Shown piece by piece: positions 1 to 36,153 of a stretch of DNA of 64,000 nt (the first letter of the stretch is position 1; every line of letters begins with the position of its first letter). The DNA lies in NCBI GenBank assembly GCA_003222395.1, contig QHWB01000045.1, positions 87,130 to 151,129 of the forward strand, given 5' to 3'. Below the pieces are notes generated by a model. The model saw only the letters and a list, made by a program, of their open reading frames with translations, was not told the origin of the DNA and did no database searches. Position numbers and translations under genes: made by a program. This stretch comes from Acidobacteriota bacterium. GTDB taxonomy: Bacteria > Acidobacteriota > Vicinamibacteria > Vicinamibacterales > CAVVIG01.

Positions 1-2094
1 TACTTCGACGTGCTCGGCATCGCGCCGGCGGCCGGACGCTTCTTCCTTCGCGACGAAGATCGCACACCAGGCGCCCATCCGGTGGTCGTGATTGCGCACA
101 GTCTGTGGCAGCGGCGGTTCGGCGCGACGCCGGCCGTCGTCGGCCGCACGATCGCGCTGAACCGGCGCGTCTTCACGATCGTCGGCGTGGCGCCGGAAGG
201 GTTCAAGGGCGTGACCTCGATGTTCGGCCCGGAGATCTGGGCGCCGTCGATGGCCGCGCCGGGTCTGCTGCCGCGCCAGTTTGGCGACTGGCTTCACGAA
301 CGAGGATCGGTCGTCTTCAACACCGTGGGCCGTTTGAAGGCCGCGGTGACGCGCGAGCAGGCGGAAGCCAGCTTCAAAGCGATCGCCAGAGGCCTCGAAC
401 AGGCGTATCCCGAATCGAACAAAGGCCGCAGCATTTCTCTGCTGCCGATCGCGGAGGCGACGATCTTTCCCGGGATGCGCAGCGCCATGATGTTCGGCGC
501 GGCGGTGCTCATGGCGATCGTCGCCGTGGTGCTGTTGATCGCGTGCTCGAACGTCGCCAATCTGCTCCTCGCGCGCGCCACGGCACGCCGTCAGGAGCTC
601 GCCGTGCGCGTGGCGCTCGGCGCCGGCCGGGCCCGTCTGGTGCGACAACTGCTGACCGAAAGCCTTCTCCTCGGCGTCATCGGCGGCGCCGTGGGACTGC
701 TCGTCGGCACCTGGGGGCGCAATCTCCTCTGGTCGTTCCGTCCGGCGGTCGTCGCGAACAATTTCGTCGCGCTTCGATTGGACGGACGCGTGTTCCTGTT
801 CACGTGCCTCCTCGCCATCGCCAGCAGCGTCGTCATCGGGTTGATTCCGGCGCTTCGTGCGTCGCGGCCCGACGTCGTCGGCGTTCTCAAGGAAGAAGCT
901 GGAACGACCGCCGGGACACGGCGCGCTGGAAGACTACGTCGCGCGCTCGTCGTCGCGCAGGTCGCAATGTCGCTCGTCGCGCTCGTCGTCGCCGGCCTGT
1001 TCCTGCGAAACATCCAGCAGGCGTTCACGGTCGACCTTGGGTACGATCCGAAGCCGCTCTCGGTCGTGTCCGCGAATCCGGGACAGGCAGGATACGCGCA
1101 GCCGCGGGCGGAGCAGTTCTATCGCTCGGCACGGGAACGCGTCGCAACGATCCCGGGCGTGGCGTCGGTTTCGTGGGCGGCGAATCAGCCGCTGTGGGCG
1201 AGCGTGTACCGCCGTCTCATCGTCGAAGGCCGTGAGCCGCAGGAGAAATCGGATGCGATGCTCACGCTCGCGCACACGGTCGACGTCGGCTATTTTTCGA
1301 CAATCGGCGTCGCGCTTCGGGCCGGCAGAGACTTCGTCGCCGCGGACCGCGCCGGAACCGTGTCCGTGGCGATCGTCAATGAAACGATGGCGACGAGATA
1401 TTGGCCGGATCAGGATCCGATCGGCCGGCGATTCCGGTTCGACACCGACACGCAGCCGCGCGAAATCGTCGGCGTCGTCAAGACGATCAAATACCAGACG
1501 ATCGGCGAGGCGCCGCAGCCGGCGGTCTACGTACCGCTCAGCCAGAATTATGCCGATGCGATGGTCGTGTACGTGCGGAGCGCCGGCAGCCCGGCATCGA
1601 CGCTGCAGGCGGTCGAGCGCGAGCTGCGCGCTATCGATCCTGAGATGCCGCTCGAGAACGGCGCGACGGTCGTCGACGTGCTCGATCAGTCGCTGTGGAT
1701 GATGAAGCTGGCTGCCGGCCTGTTGGGCGTGTTCGGCGCGCTCGCGCTGTCGCTCGCCTCCGTCGGGCTCTACGGCGTGATGGCGCATACGGTCGGTCAG
1801 CGGCAGCGGGAGATCGGGCTGCGGCTGGCGCTCGGCGCCGATCGCGCCGCGGTTCTGCATTTGGTGTTGAGCGAAGCCGGCGCGCTCGTCGCGATCGGCG
1901 TCGCGATCGGCCTCGCGTGTTCCGCGATGGCGTCGCGCGGCCTCGCGTCGTTGCTGTTCGGACTGAGCCCGATCGATCCGGTGGCGTTTGGCGGCGCCTC
2001 GCTGCTCATGGCCGCCGTCGCGTTCGCGGCCGGCTATCTGCCGGCGCGGCGGGCGAGCCGCCTCGATCCGGTCATCGCGCTGCGCACGGGATGA
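1..2094 (+). CDS. ABC transporter permease, MacB/ADOP family (5' partial)
   Basis: The frame is open from the first base (YFDVLGIAPAAGRFF), so the true start lies outside the window. The 697 visible residues hold a MacB-type periplasmic core, a first FtsX-like membrane block (about residues 160-240, with ACSNVANLLLARATARRQE), a second periplasmic core, and a C-terminal FtsX block with QRQREIGLRLALGA and three hydrophobic segments. This internally duplicated layout is typical of the ADOP permeases expanded in Acidobacteriota. They are inner-membrane mechanotransmission-type permeases of unknown substrate, often linked to peptide or antibiotic efflux. The stop codon overlaps the start of the response regulator (ATGA), so the permease and the two-component pair probably share a transcript. 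No ATPase is visible here. Confidence 0.9.
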   Translation, partial: YFDVLGIAPAAGRFFLRDEDRTPGAHPVVVIAHSLWQRRFGATPAVVGRTIALNRRVFTIVGVAPEGFKGVTSMFGPEIWAPSMAAPGLLPRQFGDWLHERGSVVFNTVGRLKAAVTREQAEASFKAIARGLEQAYPESNKGRSISLLPIAEATIFPGMRSAMMFGAAVLMAIVAVVLLIACSNVANLLLARATARRQELAVRVALGAGRARLVRQLLTESLLLGVIGGAVGLLVGTWGRNLLWSFRPAVVANNFVALRLDGRVFLFTCLLAIASSVVIGLIPALRASRPDVVGVLKEEAGTTAGTRRAGRLRRALVVAQVAMSLVALVVAGLFLRNIQQAFTVDLGYDPKPLSVVSANPGQAGYAQPRAEQFYRSARERVATIPGVASVSWAANQPLWASVYRRLIVEGREPQEKSDAMLTLAHTVDVGYFSTIGVALRAGRDFVAADRAGTVSVAIVNETMATRYWPDQDPIGRRFRFDTDTQPREIVGVVKTIKYQTIGEAPQPAVYVPLSQNYADAMVVYVRSAGSPASTLQAVERELRAIDPEMPLENGATVVDVLDQSLWMMKLAAGLLGVFGALALSLASVGLYGVMAHTVGQRQREIGLRLALGADRAAVLHLVLSEAGALVAIGVAIGLACSAMASRGLASLLFGLSPIDPVAFGGASLLMAAVAFAAGYLPARRASRLDPVIALRTG

Positions 2095-2771
2095 AGACGG
2101 TCCTGGTCGTCGACGACGAGCGGCCGATCGTTCAGATCGCGAAGGACTATCTCGAGCACGCCGGGTTCGCGGTGATTGCGGCGCACGACGGTGCCGTCGC
2201 GCTCGAGATCGTCCGCGCCCGCCGTCCCGATCTGGTCGTCCTCGATCTCGGGTTGCCGCGGCTGGACGGAATCGAGGTCGCCAGACAGCTGCGTCGCGAG
2301 TCGACGATTCCGATCATCATGCTGACGGCGCGCGTGGAGGAGTCGGATCGGCTCCTCGGCCTCGAGATCGGCGCCGACGACTACATCACCAAGCCGTTCA
2401 GTCCGCGGGAGCTCGTCGCGCGCGTCAAGACGGTGCTGCGCCGCGTCGATTCGGCGCAGGCGGCCGGCGACGTCCGTCAGATCGACGACCTGACCATTGA
2501 CATCTCGCGAATGAAAGTGAATCGGGGCCGTACGGCCATCGAGCTGACGACGACGGAGTTTCAGCTGCTGGCGGCGCTCGCGCGGCATCCGGGACGCGTG
2601 TTCACGCGCGCGCAGCTCCTCGACGCGGTGCGCGGAGACGCCGTCGAGTCCTTCGAGCGCGCGATTGACGCGCACGTCAAGAACATCCGCCGCAAGATCG
2701 AGCCCGACACCCGCAATCCGCGCTACATCCTGACGGTGTACGGCATCGGCTACAAGTTCGCCGAGCCATGA
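2091..2771 (+). CDS. OmpR/PhoB-type response regulator
   Basis: This 226-residue DNA-binding regulator has an N-terminal receiver with the acidic pair D8/D9, phosphoacceptor D52 (in VVLDLGLPRLDG), T79 and K101 (in YITKPFSPREL). A C-terminal winged helix follows from about residue 130 (TTTEFQLLAALARHPGRVFTRAQLL). All catalytic residues of the receiver are present, so it should be phosphorylated normally. It overlaps the permease upstream and the kinase downstream by ATGA, which indicates tight translational coupling. The likely role is to control the adjacent permease, but the signal is unknown. Confidence 0.95.
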   Translation: MKTVLVVDDERPIVQIAKDYLEHAGFAVIAAHDGAVALEIVRARRPDLVVLDLGLPRLDGIEVARQLRRESTIPIIMLTARVEESDRLLGLEIGADDYITKPFSPRELVARVKTVLRRVDSAQAAGDVRQIDDLTIDISRMKVNRGRTAIELTTTEFQLLAALARHPGRVFTRAQLLDAVRGDAVESFERAIDAHVKNIRRKIEPDTRNPRYILTVYGIGYKFAEP

Positions 2772-3868
2772 GGGGCCCCGTCCATCCCAGACGTCCGCCG
2801 CCGTGGTGGCCCACCAGCGAACCGTGGCCGCCGGCGACTCGCGGCCCGTGGCTGTATCGACGGAACCGCTTCATGCGGCGCGCCGGGTGTCTCGTTGCGG
2901 CGGTGCTGTTTCTCTCCGCCATCGGCGCCGCCACGCTGCTGTCCTTTGCCCTGGGCCGCGCCGGGATCGTCAGTGGCCTCGCGCAGCTGTCGGTGCTGGT
3001 CGTCGTCGCGGCGATCGGGCTGCTGTTGTTCTCGACGATGTTCTTCCGCGTCATGCGGCGCGTCGGTTCGCCGATCGCAGACATCGTCGAAGCGGCGGAT
3101 CGCGTGGCGAGCTCAGACTTCTCGGTGCGCATCGCCGAGCGCGGACCGCCGCCGCTGCGATCCGTCGCTCACGCCTTCAACAAGATGACCGACAGGCTGC
3201 AGGCGCAGGATCGACAACGCCGGCACCTGATGGCCGACATCGCACACGAGCTCCGGACGCCGCTCACGGTCGTGCAGGGCCGGCTCGAGGGGCTGCTGGA
3301 CGGCGTCTATCCGCGAGACGATGCGCACGTCAGCGAGGTGCTCGCCGATACACGCATCCTCGGGAGGCTCATCGACGATCTTCGGACGCTCGCGAGCTCC
3401 GAGAGCGGCGCGCTCTCGCTTCAGCGCGAGGCGACGGACCTCGTCGTGCTGGTTCACGACGTCGTCCGTTCGCTCGCGGCGGATGCGCAGGGCGCCGGCG
3501 TGACGATCCGCATCGGGGAGTCGATGAATCTGCCGCTCGCGGATGTCGATCCGCTGCGGATTCGCGAAGTGGTCGTCAACCTCGTCACCAACGCGCTCCA
3601 CCACACCCCCGCCGGCGGCGTCGTCTCGATCGATGGTGAAGCGAAGAACGATCGCGTCGTGATGACCGTCGCCGACACGGGAGCGGGTGTCGCCGCCGAC
3701 GATCTGCCGAAGATCTTCGATCGGTTCTACAAGGGGGCGGGATCGCGCGGCTCGGGTCTCGGCCTCACGATCGCGCGCAACCTGATCGTGGCCCACGGTG
3801 GAGAGATTCGTGCGACCAGCGAACCGGGTATGGGAACGGCGATCGTCTTCACCCTTCCGGTTACTTGA
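2768..3868 (+). CDS. Sensor histidine kinase (HAMP-HisKA-HATPase)
   Basis: This 366-residue membrane kinase has a proline-rich cytoplasmic N-terminus, two membrane segments (about 41-62 and 70-94), a HAMP linker (about 95-147), a HisKA domain with phosphoacceptor H160 (in MADIAHELRTPLT), and an HATPase domain with N box VVNLVTNALHH, G1 box DTGAGV and G2 box GSGLGLTIA. The loop between the two membrane helices is very short, so there is almost no periplasmic sensor. It may sense the membrane itself or the neighbouring permease. The start overlaps the response-regulator stop, which makes the cognate pairing clear. Confidence 0.95.
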   Translation: MRGPVHPRRPPPWWPTSEPWPPATRGPWLYRRNRFMRRAGCLVAAVLFLSAIGAATLLSFALGRAGIVSGLAQLSVLVVVAAIGLLLFSTMFFRVMRRVGSPIADIVEAADRVASSDFSVRIAERGPPPLRSVAHAFNKMTDRLQAQDRQRRHLMADIAHELRTPLTVVQGRLEGLLDGVYPRDDAHVSEVLADTRILGRLIDDLRTLASSESGALSLQREATDLVVLVHDVVRSLAADAQGAGVTIRIGESMNLPLADVDPLRIREVVVNLVTNALHHTPAGGVVSIDGEAKNDRVVMTVADTGAGVAADDLPKIFDRFYKGAGSRGSGLGLTIARNLIVAHGGEIRATSEPGMGTAIVFTLPVT

Positions 3869-7172: not shown

Positions 7173-7979
7173 CTAAACGCCTAGATGGAAGCGGAAGAAC
7201 GCGAGAATTTGCCGAATGATCTCCCGCGACGTCTCGCTGTCGTGCATCAGGTCGAACGCGTGCGGCGCGTCGGGATGATTCACGAATGTCAGCGGCAGAC
7301 TGTGCCTCACCGCGTGATTCAGGAATCGATCCAGCGCGTCGTTCAATCCAGGCGTCTCGTCGCGGCCCGATCGCGTCAGGAACATCGGCACGTCAGTCGA
7401 AAGATCGCCGACCGATCGTCCGGCTGACGCGTTGACGAATCGGAACGTCTTCGCAGCCTCGGCGACGCCGGTCGTGCCATCGAGATCCAGCGTGATGCCG
7501 TAGCAGAGCGCCGCGCACTTCACCGGCTCACCACCGTCCTTCATCAGCAGCGACAACGCAGTCGGCACGTGGCCGGAGCAGGCCCATATGCCGATCCGCG
7601 TCTCGTCGATCATCAGCGACGCCGACTGCTGCCGCACGTAGTGCAAAGCGGCGCGAACGTCTGCGGCCGGTTCACGGCCGGTTCTGTACGTGACGGTGAT
7701 CGGGCCCGAGGCCGCGATCAGCCGGGCCCAGCCCACGGACGACTCCATCTCGCTGGCCGCGCACCCGAGGATCGCACGCGCGCCGATGTCGGAGTAGCCG
7801 ATCACGAGCACGACGGCCGGGTTTCGCGCGGCGCTCTTCATGTCGGGCGGGTAGTAGACATCCATCGTCAGATCGCCCTCGGCCGTTGCCTGGTAGGGGA
7901 TGTCCTTTCGAACGGTCACCGCATCGGCCGCGGGAATGTGATACACGACTTTTTTCAACGTGATTTCGTGTCGCGCCAT
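7173..7979 (-). CDS. Alpha/beta hydrolase (dienelactone-hydrolase-like)
   Basis: This 268-residue protein has the order expected of an alpha/beta hydrolase: an oxyanion-region strand (NPAVVLVIGYSDIG), a nucleophile elbow (GIWACSGHVPTAL), a later acidic site (FLTRSGRDE), and a histidine near the C-terminus (NHPDAPHAFD). The elbow reads A-C-S-G-H rather than G-x-S-x-G, so either a Cys/Ser variant is used or activity is reduced. The ATG at 7979 is preferred over a TTG four codons upstream. Neither has a clear ribosome-binding site, and a terminator-like hairpin sits directly upstream. Cytoplasmic; substrate unknown. Confidence 0.8.
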   Translation of the reverse strand: MARHEITLKKVVYHIPAADAVTVRKDIPYQATAEGDLTMDVYYPPDMKSAARNPAVVLVIGYSDIGARAILGCAASEMESSVGWARLIAASGPITVTYRTGREPAADVRAALHYVRQQSASLMIDETRIGIWACSGHVPTALSLLMKDGGEPVKCAALCYGITLDLDGTTGVAEAAKTFRFVNASAGRSVGDLSTDVPMFLTRSGRDETPGLNDALDRFLNHAVRHSLPLTFVNHPDAPHAFDLMHDSETSREIIRQILAFFRFHLGV

Positions 7980-33019: not shown

Positions 33020-34363
33020 ATGCCCAATCTGTCACGCCGTCAGCTGATGCAGTTGGCCGCACTCGCTATCGCGGTTCTCGTGCTCACATCAGGCAGCGCT
33101 TCGCTCGTTGCGGAAACGCGACAGGTTTCCATCGAGACCCTTATCTACGATCTCAAGAGTCCCGATGCCGTCAGGCGTCAAACCGCCGCGCGCGAGTTGG
33201 GCAACGCCAGGCACCGGCCGGCGATCCCGCAACTCGCCGCGCTGGCGAACGACCCCGTCGCCGCCGTGCGCCGCGAGGTCGAGTTGACGCTCGAGCGCAT
33301 GGAGGACATCCAGACACTGCCGGGATTCATCGCCTTCGCGTCGGACAACGAGGACGACATACGATCGCGCGCCGTTGCGGCTCTCGTGAAACTGCATCTT
33401 CCGCGCGCGATCGGCGTCGCTGCGGCGTTGACGACCCTTCGCGAACGGATCGTCTACCGCCCGGACCGGGATCTGGACGTCGTTGTCGAACCCGACGTGC
33501 CGGTTGATCCCGCCGTCGTCTCGACGCTCCGCGTCCGAATCGACGACTCCGAGCGCGGGATTCGGCGCACCGCGATCCGCGGTCTCGGCATCCTGCGCGC
33601 GAAGCCTGCGGTTCCGGATCTCCTGCGGATCGTTCGCGAAGACCGCGACGGCGGCCTGCGGTTCGAGGCCGTTCGCGCACTCCGAAAGATCGCGGACGGC
33701 TCGATTGCCGGAGATCTTGCGGCGTTCCTCAACATCAACGACGACGACGTGCGCAACGAGTTGATTGCGACAGTTGCCTCCATGCGTTACCGCGGCGCCG
33801 TGCCGGAATTGACGCGCATCGCCGAGCAGACGAAGCGCACCGACTCCGCGTGCGTCCTCGCGCTCGCGGCGCTGGCCGATCTGGCCGATCCCTCGTCGGC
33901 GCCGTTGTTCGATCGATTCAAAGCCGACGCAGACGAAATGGTGCGTCTGTACGCCAATGAAGGCATCGCACGCACGTCCGATTCGAGCATGAAGACTCGG
34001 ATTTCGGCCGCTCGGCTCGTGGAACGGAGCGCGCGCGTCCGCACGGCGCAGGCGTTCGCGCTGCTGCGGCTCGGCGAAAGCGAGTATCTGGACGAGCTGA
34101 TTCGAGCGCTCGAGCGTTCGACGACCCGCGATCTCGCGAAAGAGTATCTGCTCGAGACCCGCGGCGCCGACCGTCAGGCCCTGTTTGCCCCGCGCTCCGC
34201 GAGTTCAGCGGCTCGCGCCGAATTAGCCGACGTCCTGGGTCTGATTGGGGATCCAGACGCGTTGCCGCGGCTCCAGGAACTGGCGCACGATTCAGACAAA
34301 GACGTGGCGCGCGCGGCCGAACGCGCCACGCGACGCATCGCGGTCGCGAGCAGCAGCCAGTAG
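33020..34363 (+). CDS. Exported HEAT-repeat protein
   Basis: This 447-residue protein starts after CAGGAGGACGT. Its N-terminus (LSRRQLMQLAALAIAVLVL) is a Tat-like or Sec signal. The rest is a series of HEAT/PBS-lyase-type helical repeats (VRRQTAARELGNARHRPAIP, IRRTAIRGLGILRAKPAVPD, LRFEAVRALRKIADGSI, ARAELADVLGLIGDPDALPR), a scaffold for protein-protein contacts. It sits 200 bases upstream of the selenoprotein-like TPR-thioredoxin gene on the same strand. The function is unknown; a scaffold for envelope proteins is plausible. Confidence 0.85.
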   Translation: MPNLSRRQLMQLAALAIAVLVLTSGSASLVAETRQVSIETLIYDLKSPDAVRRQTAARELGNARHRPAIPQLAALANDPVAAVRREVELTLERMEDIQTLPGFIAFASDNEDDIRSRAVAALVKLHLPRAIGVAAALTTLRERIVYRPDRDLDVVVEPDVPVDPAVVSTLRVRIDDSERGIRRTAIRGLGILRAKPAVPDLLRIVREDRDGGLRFEAVRALRKIADGSIAGDLAAFLNINDDDVRNELIATVASMRYRGAVPELTRIAEQTKRTDSACVLALAALADLADPSSAPLFDRFKADADEMVRLYANEGIARTSDSSMKTRISAARLVERSARVRTAQAFALLRLGESEYLDELIRALERSTTRDLAKEYLLETRGADRQALFAPRSASSAARAELADVLGLIGDPDALPRLQELAHDSDKDVARAAERATRRIAVASSSQ

Positions 34364-34563: not shown

Positions 34564-36153
34564 ATGAGTTGGCTGCGTTTGCTCGGAGCCGCCCTTCTGC
34601 TGGGAATTCTTGCGGTCGCGTCACCCACCGCCCGCGAAAGCAGCGGAACGCCCGCAGCGAGGGCCTTCTTTGCGGAAGGCGAAGCGGAGGCCAAAGCCGG
34701 CAAATACGCCGGCGCCGCCGCCGCGTTCCGCAAAGCCATCGAAGCTGATCCCGATTTCGTCGAAGCACACCAGCGTTTCATCGAGAGCACCCAGCGCCAG
34801 GAAGCGCCGGCGAGCAGAACGCCCACGGTTCCGCGGCTCCAGCAACTGTACGAGCGCTGGGCCAAGCAGTACCCGAAGCGTGCGGCGTACCAGTGGGCGC
34901 TTGGTTTCCTCTCGCACGAGCCGGATACGGCCGATGTCTTCTTCAAGAAGGCGCTGGCAATCGATCCAGGGTTCGCGCGAGCGCATGTCCTGCTCGCGAA
35001 GAACGCCGACATCCGCGGTGACTGGACGGCGCAGCGCGAGCACTTGAAAGCCGCTGTCGACGCCAGTCCCGACGAGCCGCGTTACCTTCTGAAATACGCG
35101 CAGGCGCTTCAAGAAATCGACCCTGCGCATTTTCGAGAGCTCGCTTCCGAGGTCGTCCGCAAGTTCCCCGCGACCCAGGCCGCGGCCGAAGCGCTGTACC
35201 GTCTCGCCGAGGCGGCGTCGCATCCTGAGCGCCGCGCGTATTTCGAGCGGCTGCGCACCGAGTATCCGGCCGGCGCGTACGGTTACGGGTCGAGTGCCAT
35301 GTACGACTTCTACGATGAGCTGACGATTCCGTCAGAAGCGTTGTCGGTCTCGCGAGACATGGCGAAGGTGTTTCCGTCCAGCAAGACGTGGGCGCGGCGA
35401 GTGGCTCTGCAGGAAGCAATGGCGCGCGCGCAGGCGCTCGTAGCCGAACGGAACTTCGCCGATGCACTGGAGCTGTTGGAGAAGACCGAGCGACCGTCCG
35501 GCGCGCACGGCGCCACGTGGACGCTCTTGAAAGCCGAGGCTGCCGCGGCCGCCGGACACAGCGAGCTGGCGTACGCGGCGCTCGTCGACAGCGTCGCCGC
35601 GATGCCCGACGATCGGGTCGAGGAGGCGCTGGTGAAATATGGAACGGCGGCGAACAAGACGCGACCGCAGATCGACGCGGACGTGTGGCGAATCCGTGAC
35701 GCGAAGGCCGTGCCTGCCGTGTCGTTCCAGTTGCCGGCATCGCGCGGTAGCACTCCCGTTCAACTGTCCGACTACCGCGGCCGCGTCGTGTTGCTGGCGT
35801 TCTGGTTCCCTGGTTGACCGGGCTGCCGTGAGGAGTTTCCTCACCTGCAGCAAGTGCTCGAAAAATTCAAGAACCGCGGCTTCGCTGTCGTCGCCATCAA
35901 TCTCGAGCCGGCACAGCGTCAGGCCGTGTTACCGCTGCTGGCCGCGATGCGCATCGGCTTCGTTCCGGCCGAGAGCGATTGGGCATGGGCGGAACAGCAG
36001 TACGGCGTGACGGGAACGCCGGCCGCGGCGTTGATCGACCAGCAAGGCCGCATCGTGTTCCGTCCCGAGGTGCGCGACGCGGCGACCCGTGCGGGGCTCG
36101 AACGTCAGGTCGAAGCGCTCCTCGACCGACCCGAACGATTGATGAGCCGCTGA
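34564..36153 (+). CDS. Probable selenoprotein: TPR repeats plus thioredoxin-fold domain with UxxC motif (TGA 35815-35817 read as Sec)
   Basis: Read through one in-frame TGA, this gene encodes 529 residues: a signal peptide or anchor (about 1-24), TPR-like helical repeats (about 28-390) and a C-terminal TlpA/AhpC-like thioredoxin domain (about 395-529). The domain enters as SDYRGRVVLLAFWFPG, then TGA (residue 418), then PGCREEFPHLQQVLEKF, and continues to VTGTPAAALIDQQGRIVF with the expected cis-Pro. The TGA stands exactly where the first redox Cys of CxxC belongs, and Cys421 is kept. A hairpin typical of bacterial SECIS elements follows (35823-35850). A point mutation creating a stop is the alternative, but the intact downstream frame and the hairpin argue against decay. 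Extracytoplasmic thiol redox activity is likely. Confidence 0.85.
35823..35850 (+). promoter_or_regulatory. Candidate bacterial SECIS hairpin
   Basis: Starting 5 bases after the TGA codon, a lower helix CTGC/GCAG (35823-35826 with 35847-35850), a small internal loop and a perfect 7-bp upper stem (GTGAGGA at 35828-35834 with TCCTCAC at 35838-35844) close a GTT loop. The first loop base is G, 17 nt from the UGA. This fits the bacterial consensus of an apical loop with a leading G about 16-37 nt downstream. Confidence 0.7.

Follow-up and report, generated by a model that had tools for sequence, protein, structure and literature searches.

This locus raises the question of whether a reading frame interrupted by TGA ends there or encodes one longer protein. 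In the window (the whole stretch of 64,000 nucleotides analysed here), translation of the forward strand from the ATG at 34564 reached a terminal TGA at 36151-36153, giving 529 residues with a single internal stop, in agreement with the initial annotation, which had the frame cross a TGA and continue to a natural stop at 36153. The internal TGA (35815-35817, residue 418) is preceded by LLAFWFPG and followed by PGCREEFPHLQ, and it stands where a TlpA/ResA-like CxxC site has its first Cys. Judging from comparisons with its relatives, the locus very probably encodes one exported selenoprotein that ordinary annotation would split at the UGA. Its features are the following:

34564..36153, + strand: whole frame of the predicted TPR-redoxin selenoprotein (translation; full-length relatives)
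34564..34632, + strand: probable N-terminal export signal with a short basic start, a hydrophobic stretch and ...SPTA (by eye)
34651..35706, + strand: TPR-like helical solenoid, residues ~30-381 (Pfam, structure model, profile and Foldseek TPR matches)
35713..36123, + strand: Redoxin/TlpA-like thioredoxin-fold domain, residues ~384-520 (Pfam and structure match)
35815..35817, + strand: in-frame UGA, residue 418, first position of UxxC, predicted to be read as selenocysteine (alignment of relatives)
35822..35851, + strand: SECIS-like hairpin with lower helix 35822-35826/35847-35851, upper stem 35828-35834/35838-35844 and loop GUU 35835-35837 (folding, covariation, stem counts)
35824..35826, + strand: resolving Cys, residue 421 of UxxC (invariant in alignments A1 and A5)
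36019..36021, + strand: conserved Pro, residue 486 (invariant in alignments A1 and A5)

Twenty-four related genes were compared at the codon, as the initial annotation had proposed; 15 of them have UGA (the window gene included), eight have Cys and one has Ser. Its claim that the TGA occupies the place of the first Cys in a CxxC site, with the resolving Cys kept, is thus borne out by homologues with Cys at this position and by the invariant Cys421. The position of Pro486 is presumably that of the cis-proline of the thioredoxin fold. UGA aligned with UGA between the window gene and each of L063, L005 and L064, and also between L063 and L005. The dN/dS values after the UGA were 0.219 (window-L063), 0.214 (window-L005), 0.515 (window-L064) and 0.127 (L063-L005), and those before it, in the same order, were 0.293, 0.319, 0.579 and 0.266; the value after the UGA was lower in every pair, with dS near saturation (about 1.0-1.2) in the three pairs that include the window gene. 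L063-L005 was the cleanest pair, with a dS of 0.23 after the UGA. These comparisons indicate that purifying selection acts on the downstream codons as on a part of the gene.

The hairpin downstream of the UGA has a 7-bp upper stem, a 3-nt loop of GUU (GTT in the DNA) and a UGA-to-loop spacing of 17 nt, just as had been described from the letters, except that the lower helix comprises 5 bp (35822-35826 with 35847-35851) instead of the 4 bp given there. The limits for bacterial SECIS elements quoted in a 2026 review (PMC13188914) are a loop of 3-9 nt, an upper stem of 4-16 bp, a distance of 16-37 nt from the UGA, a G in loop position 1 or 2 and an MFE of at most -7.5. The window hairpin lies within every one of them (3-nt loop, G first, 7 bp, 17 nt, -19.0 over 45 nt), and the earlier claim that it fits the bacterial model holds. 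Taken alone, the hairpin is moderately unusual; in a window this rich in GC it is no rarity, and it is not decisive. Its folding energy was -20.0 kcal/mol over 48 nt (z -2.4), and 6 of 200 shuffled sequences folded as well. When all 1641 TGA triplets of the window were considered (any frame, both strands, its own included), the next 45 nt folded at least equally well after 85 of them, and 43 folded as well and had a stem of at least 7 bp. Folding energy alone was rejected as proof, since those 85 TGAs equal it. An Rfam scan of 35700-36000 gave no match.

Comparison among relatives was more informative on the hairpin. In the upper stem, the six outer pairs were intact in 14 of the 15 UGA genes, L160 keeping five of the six, as opposed to one of the nine Cys/Ser genes, the Cys gene L166 with six of six (Fisher p 1e-4); in a subset of 12 UGA genes, 86.1% of the cells paired, with a covariation of 0.302 against a shuffled mean of 0.113 (0 of 500), and since the 24 compared genes are kin, these Fisher and shuffle figures overstate independence and are not strict probabilities. 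Compensatory stem changes were present in the UGA set, and pairing dropped to 34-60% when the register was slid in the 12 genes. In seven of the nine Cys/Ser genes, 52.4% of the cells paired and covariation was at the shuffled level. The covariation sets leave out L160, L061, L068, L169 and L166, which the stem counts include. The protein sequence flanking the site is similar in the UGA and Cys/Ser sets, so the stem tracks the UGA and not the protein. Conservation among the relatives thus argues strongly that the hairpin stands above chance.

The source genome (7.74 Mb, 118 contigs, 99.26% complete, 2.97% contamination) was searched for selA, selB, selC and selD, the check suggested at the outset, and all four were found. 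SelA scored 456.7 bits, SelB 313.8 bits (cut-off 242.25) and SelD 344.1 bits (cut-off 125); the tRNA-Sec, with anticodon UCA, scored 62.5 bits (cut-off 47), and the second tRNA above the Rfam cut-off was a tRNA-Ser. No selC was found by ARAGORN and Rfam in the 4098 bases around selA (L001); it lies on another contig. SelA is present in 124 of the 162 genomes of the order, and its presence therefore weighs little as evidence. All 12 tested genomes with the UGA form have SelA, a count outside which the genome of L068 lies. Cys forms occur in G092, which has no SelA, and alongside SelA in G043, G080, G360 and G375. The SelD gene (L048:1501-2433) has an in-frame UGA of its own, in UASK at the usual Sec site, and is a second probable selenoprotein; UxxK is the site listed for selenophosphate synthetase in PMC13188914.

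Could the UGA be something other than a Sec codon? It might be a true stop that leaves a truncated TPR protein and a decayed redoxin remnant (a pseudogene), or it might be a sequencing error. Translation table 11 does make TGA a stop, and the piece past it is also listed as a separate small ORF. However, other genomes have UGA at this very codon, which makes an error very unlikely, and the relatives have Cys in that column; moreover, dN/dS past the UGA is 0.13-0.22 in the three closest pairs, under the pre-UGA value, and the hairpin accompanies the UGA and not the protein, so that we regard a stop or an error as very improbable. Reading of the UGA without Sec decoding, by a near-cognate tRNA (Trp or Cys) or by leaky termination, would be in keeping with the leaky read-through that sometimes occurs at UGA. 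Against it stand the complete Sec set of the genome, the Cys of the relatives at the replaced residue and the covariation of the hairpin in UGA genes only, and we give it hardly any weight. Nor is UGA simply a sense codon here, since the gene itself terminates at a second UGA. The grounds for doubt named in the initial annotation were missing Sec machinery, missing Cys homologues and a miscalled base; the machinery is present, Cys homologues exist and a sequencing error is very unlikely. We consider it highly likely that the gene encodes a single exported selenoprotein in which the UGA is decoded as Sec at a redoxin active site, and the decoding step is well supported by the comparative evidence.

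The AlphaFold2 model of the predicted protein, built from a 19-row alignment, showed a helical solenoid and a thioredoxin fold (mean pLDDT 86.9, pTM 0.81), with low pLDDT at residues 1-25. The solenoid (~350 residues) is all-helical in the model, has TPR_11, TPR_19, TPR_14, TPR_17 and TPR_1 over the Pfam cut-off and matches TPR chains by profile search; the Foldseek matches that span it superpose poorly, with an rmsd of about 8-29 Å. The C-terminal domain passed the Pfam cut-offs of both PF00578 (AhpC-TSA; 57 bits against 26) and PF08534 (Redoxin; 53.7 bits against 26.6). Structural comparison with residues 379-525, which barely covers the solenoid, gave the DsbE-like 3gl3 as the best match of the thioredoxin fold (Z 20.4, 1.9 Å, 140 residues), and ResA 1st9 could be superimposed similarly (Z 19.6, 1.8 Å, 136 residues). 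The fold, the CxxC position and the conserved Pro are common to the window protein and ResA/TlpA/DsbE (CcmG); ResA and DsbE-type chains matched with Z of 19-20 and CcmG chains with about 16-17, and TlpA 1jfu was matched by profile. In contrast to these proteins, the window protein has Sec for the first Cys, FPGU for the usual ATWC and a long TPR-like solenoid ahead. Its scores lie below the NCBIfam cut-offs for ResA (56.6 of 170 bits), TlpA (52.5 of 230) and DsbE (34.9 of 123.15), and among the matches listed for four family proteins none reached an NCBIfam cut-off, the best being ResA with 65.5 bits against 170.

How widely the fusion occurs was examined by several searches. The first gave some match in all 120 genomes, mostly to the thioredoxin domain alone, with few long matches; matches to this domain only were not counted as family, except L061. 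A family profile, with the own genome counted, had matches in 7 of the order's 162 genomes (E at most 1e-30), in 7 of 193 genomes from the class (1e-60) and in 11 of 396 genomes sampled across the phylum (1e-30). Among the best 80 of 555 related stretches in a scan of a genome collection, L066 alone, from a MAG labelled Gammaproteobacteria, was nearly full length, and L068, from a MAG labelled Eisenbacteria, matched residues 172-522; both loci are included in the set of 24 genes. Genes that match over nearly the full length, or up to a contig edge, exist with UGA (the window gene, L063, L005, L064, L057 and L168) and with Cys or Ser (L065, L009, L066, L158, L058 and L008). The remaining distant genes match chiefly over the last 150-290 residues, most of them with long open frames upstream. 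Of the proteins scanned, only three (the window protein, L064 and L066) had Pfam TPR matches that exceeded the cut-off; those of L162, L057 and L009 fell slightly under it, and L167, L168, L161 and L165 had no Pfam TPR match at 0.001. Genome G065 carries two fused UGA genes (L064 and L057) together with the short L061 (G065:C128), which has the same UGA and hairpin and 86 residues before the UGA. L061 is a short redoxin and not a fusion, and its sequence makes it a probable single-domain selenoprotein relative.

The tree of the 24 genes needed six changes between Sec and Cys/Ser, at least four of which are forced by well supported branches. The Sec or Cys/Ser label was not significantly clustered on this tree (89 of 500 shuffles were as low), in which 8 of the 21 inner branches are unresolved. 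We lean slightly towards the view that these genes form an as yet uncatalogued group, exported redoxin selenoproteins whose N-terminal region is long, helical and TPR-like. The group would occur sparsely across one phylum and in an Eisenbacteria-labelled MAG, and within it Sec and Cys would have been swapped several times, with a fixed-register SECIS hairpin coming and going alongside. Two facts reduce our estimate: the TPR assignment of the distant members finds no confirmation in Pfam, and L061 is without the long region. Two further copies showed unusual features. L158 (near 2803) carries Ser (TCA) in place of Sec and keeps three of the six outer stem pairs; its genome, G346, also has a UGA paralogue, L168. 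In L060 (G010:C322:4360-4950), residues 2-149 and 476-523 adjoin without an active site between them, and a motif search within L060 gave no match; L060 is either a copy with an internal deletion or a chimera of the assembly.

In the window, the neighbours of the selenoprotein gene are a HEAT-repeat protein, encoded upstream at 33020-34360, and an amidohydrolase, which offer no redox context and in this respect weigh against the proposed redox function. No shared operon was found among the neighbours scanned in the window and around the relatives.

The protein is most likely a periplasmic thiol-disulfide reductase, with Sec418 as the attacking group, Cys421 as the resolving residue and a solenoid that would dock its partners. 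At the UGA, SelB and Sec-tRNA(UCA) would bind the hairpin at the ribosome and selenocysteine would be inserted, and part of the chains may terminate there as a truncated TPR product. The full protein would be exported, if the signal read by eye is correct. Its selenolate could then attack the disulfide (or a sulfenate or peroxide) of an envelope partner, the resulting mixed selenide-sulfide would be resolved by Cys421, and re-reduction of the Sec418/Cys421 pair may fall to a DsbD-type membrane protein, the 350-residue solenoid presumably keeping the partner protein next to the active site. The reductase reading is supported by the ResA/DsbE-like fold together with three observations on DsbD. 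On the G043 contig (L058), a DsbD-like gene (DsbD_TM plus thioredoxin, 2042-3799) lies ~660 bases behind the Cys-form TPR-redoxin gene and is followed, after ~10 bases, by a second frame with a match to the N-terminal part of the family. The Cys relative L066 has a C-terminal tail (7250-7795) that is weakly like DsbD_N, at 18.7 bits below the Pfam threshold of 25. The own genome has one DsbD_TM gene elsewhere, albeit a common one, found in 10 of 14 control genomes.

With Sec decoding accepted, the protein might still act mainly as a peroxidase or as a redox chaperone, that is, a CnoX-like holdase with redox protection, and not as a disulfide reductase. The AhpC-TSA and Redoxin models match as well, which would suit a peroxidase, and the combination of TPR and thioredoxin acts as a chaperedoxin in CnoX (PMC6282202). 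On the other hand, the catalogue of PMC13188914 shows its thiol:disulfide oxidoreductases with UxxC and a resolving Cys, and gives TxxU for Sec peroxiredoxins. The best structural matches are likewise proteins of the ResA/DsbE type. The resemblance to CnoX (YbbN) consists in a thioredoxin fold plus TPR; in the excerpts of PMC6282202 consulted, however, its thioredoxin part is N-terminal and its TPR part C-terminal, the reverse of the window protein, and its description there includes no Sec. We therefore regard a main role as peroxidase or chaperone as rather unlikely, and retain the thiol-disulfide reductase as the preferred function.

The initial annotation had called the selenoprotein undescribed. 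As far as its consulted part extends, the 2026 catalogue (PMC13188914) holds 119 selenoprotein families or subfamilies, several UxxC redoxins among them, and names none as TPR-fused, which supports that claim; one entry is set apart by description only, which weakens it. This entry, HEU0032618.1 (Redoxin family protein, PF08534, UxxC), is a predicted selenoprotein that shares the Redoxin domain and UxxC with the window protein; the excerpt of Table 1 mentions no TPR, and, being compared by description only, it could be the same group. A second entry in that excerpt, the Prx-like thiol:disulfide oxidoreductase (PF00578, UxxC/UxxU), shares the Pfam domain and motif and is again compared by description only, with no TPR region named. 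Another Redoxin family record, MBA3499694.1, is named in PMC9312934. Selenoprotein fusions as such have already been reported, as indicated by the accessible text of the GOS paper. The matches listed in our literature searches included no paper naming a TPR-fused redoxin selenoprotein. Two NCBIfam thioredoxin-fold models are named after Sec motifs, NF041054 (WAxxUGC_long) and NF053656 (TUGYCR); the window protein scored 46.2 bits against a cut-off of 300 with the former and 12.7 bits against 100 with the latter. Provisionally, then, UxxC redoxin chemistry is already known, whereas a long helical-repeat TPR fusion is absent by name from the catalogue checked.

If the Sec reading is correct, a gene that standard annotation splits is recovered, and a multi-domain architecture is added to the bacterial selenoproteins. 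The family also provides a natural comparison, in which close proteins carry Sec, Cys or Ser and the hairpin is retained almost only alongside UGA, so that what a SECIS needs, and what an envelope redox protein gains from Sec, can be tested directly. A separate redoxin gene in a Planctomycetota MAG (L129:5206-6456) has a UGA in FWGNWUGPC, with no stem in this register. It lies outside the family, and so outside all counts, and from its sequence it is possibly another Sec gene or an error.
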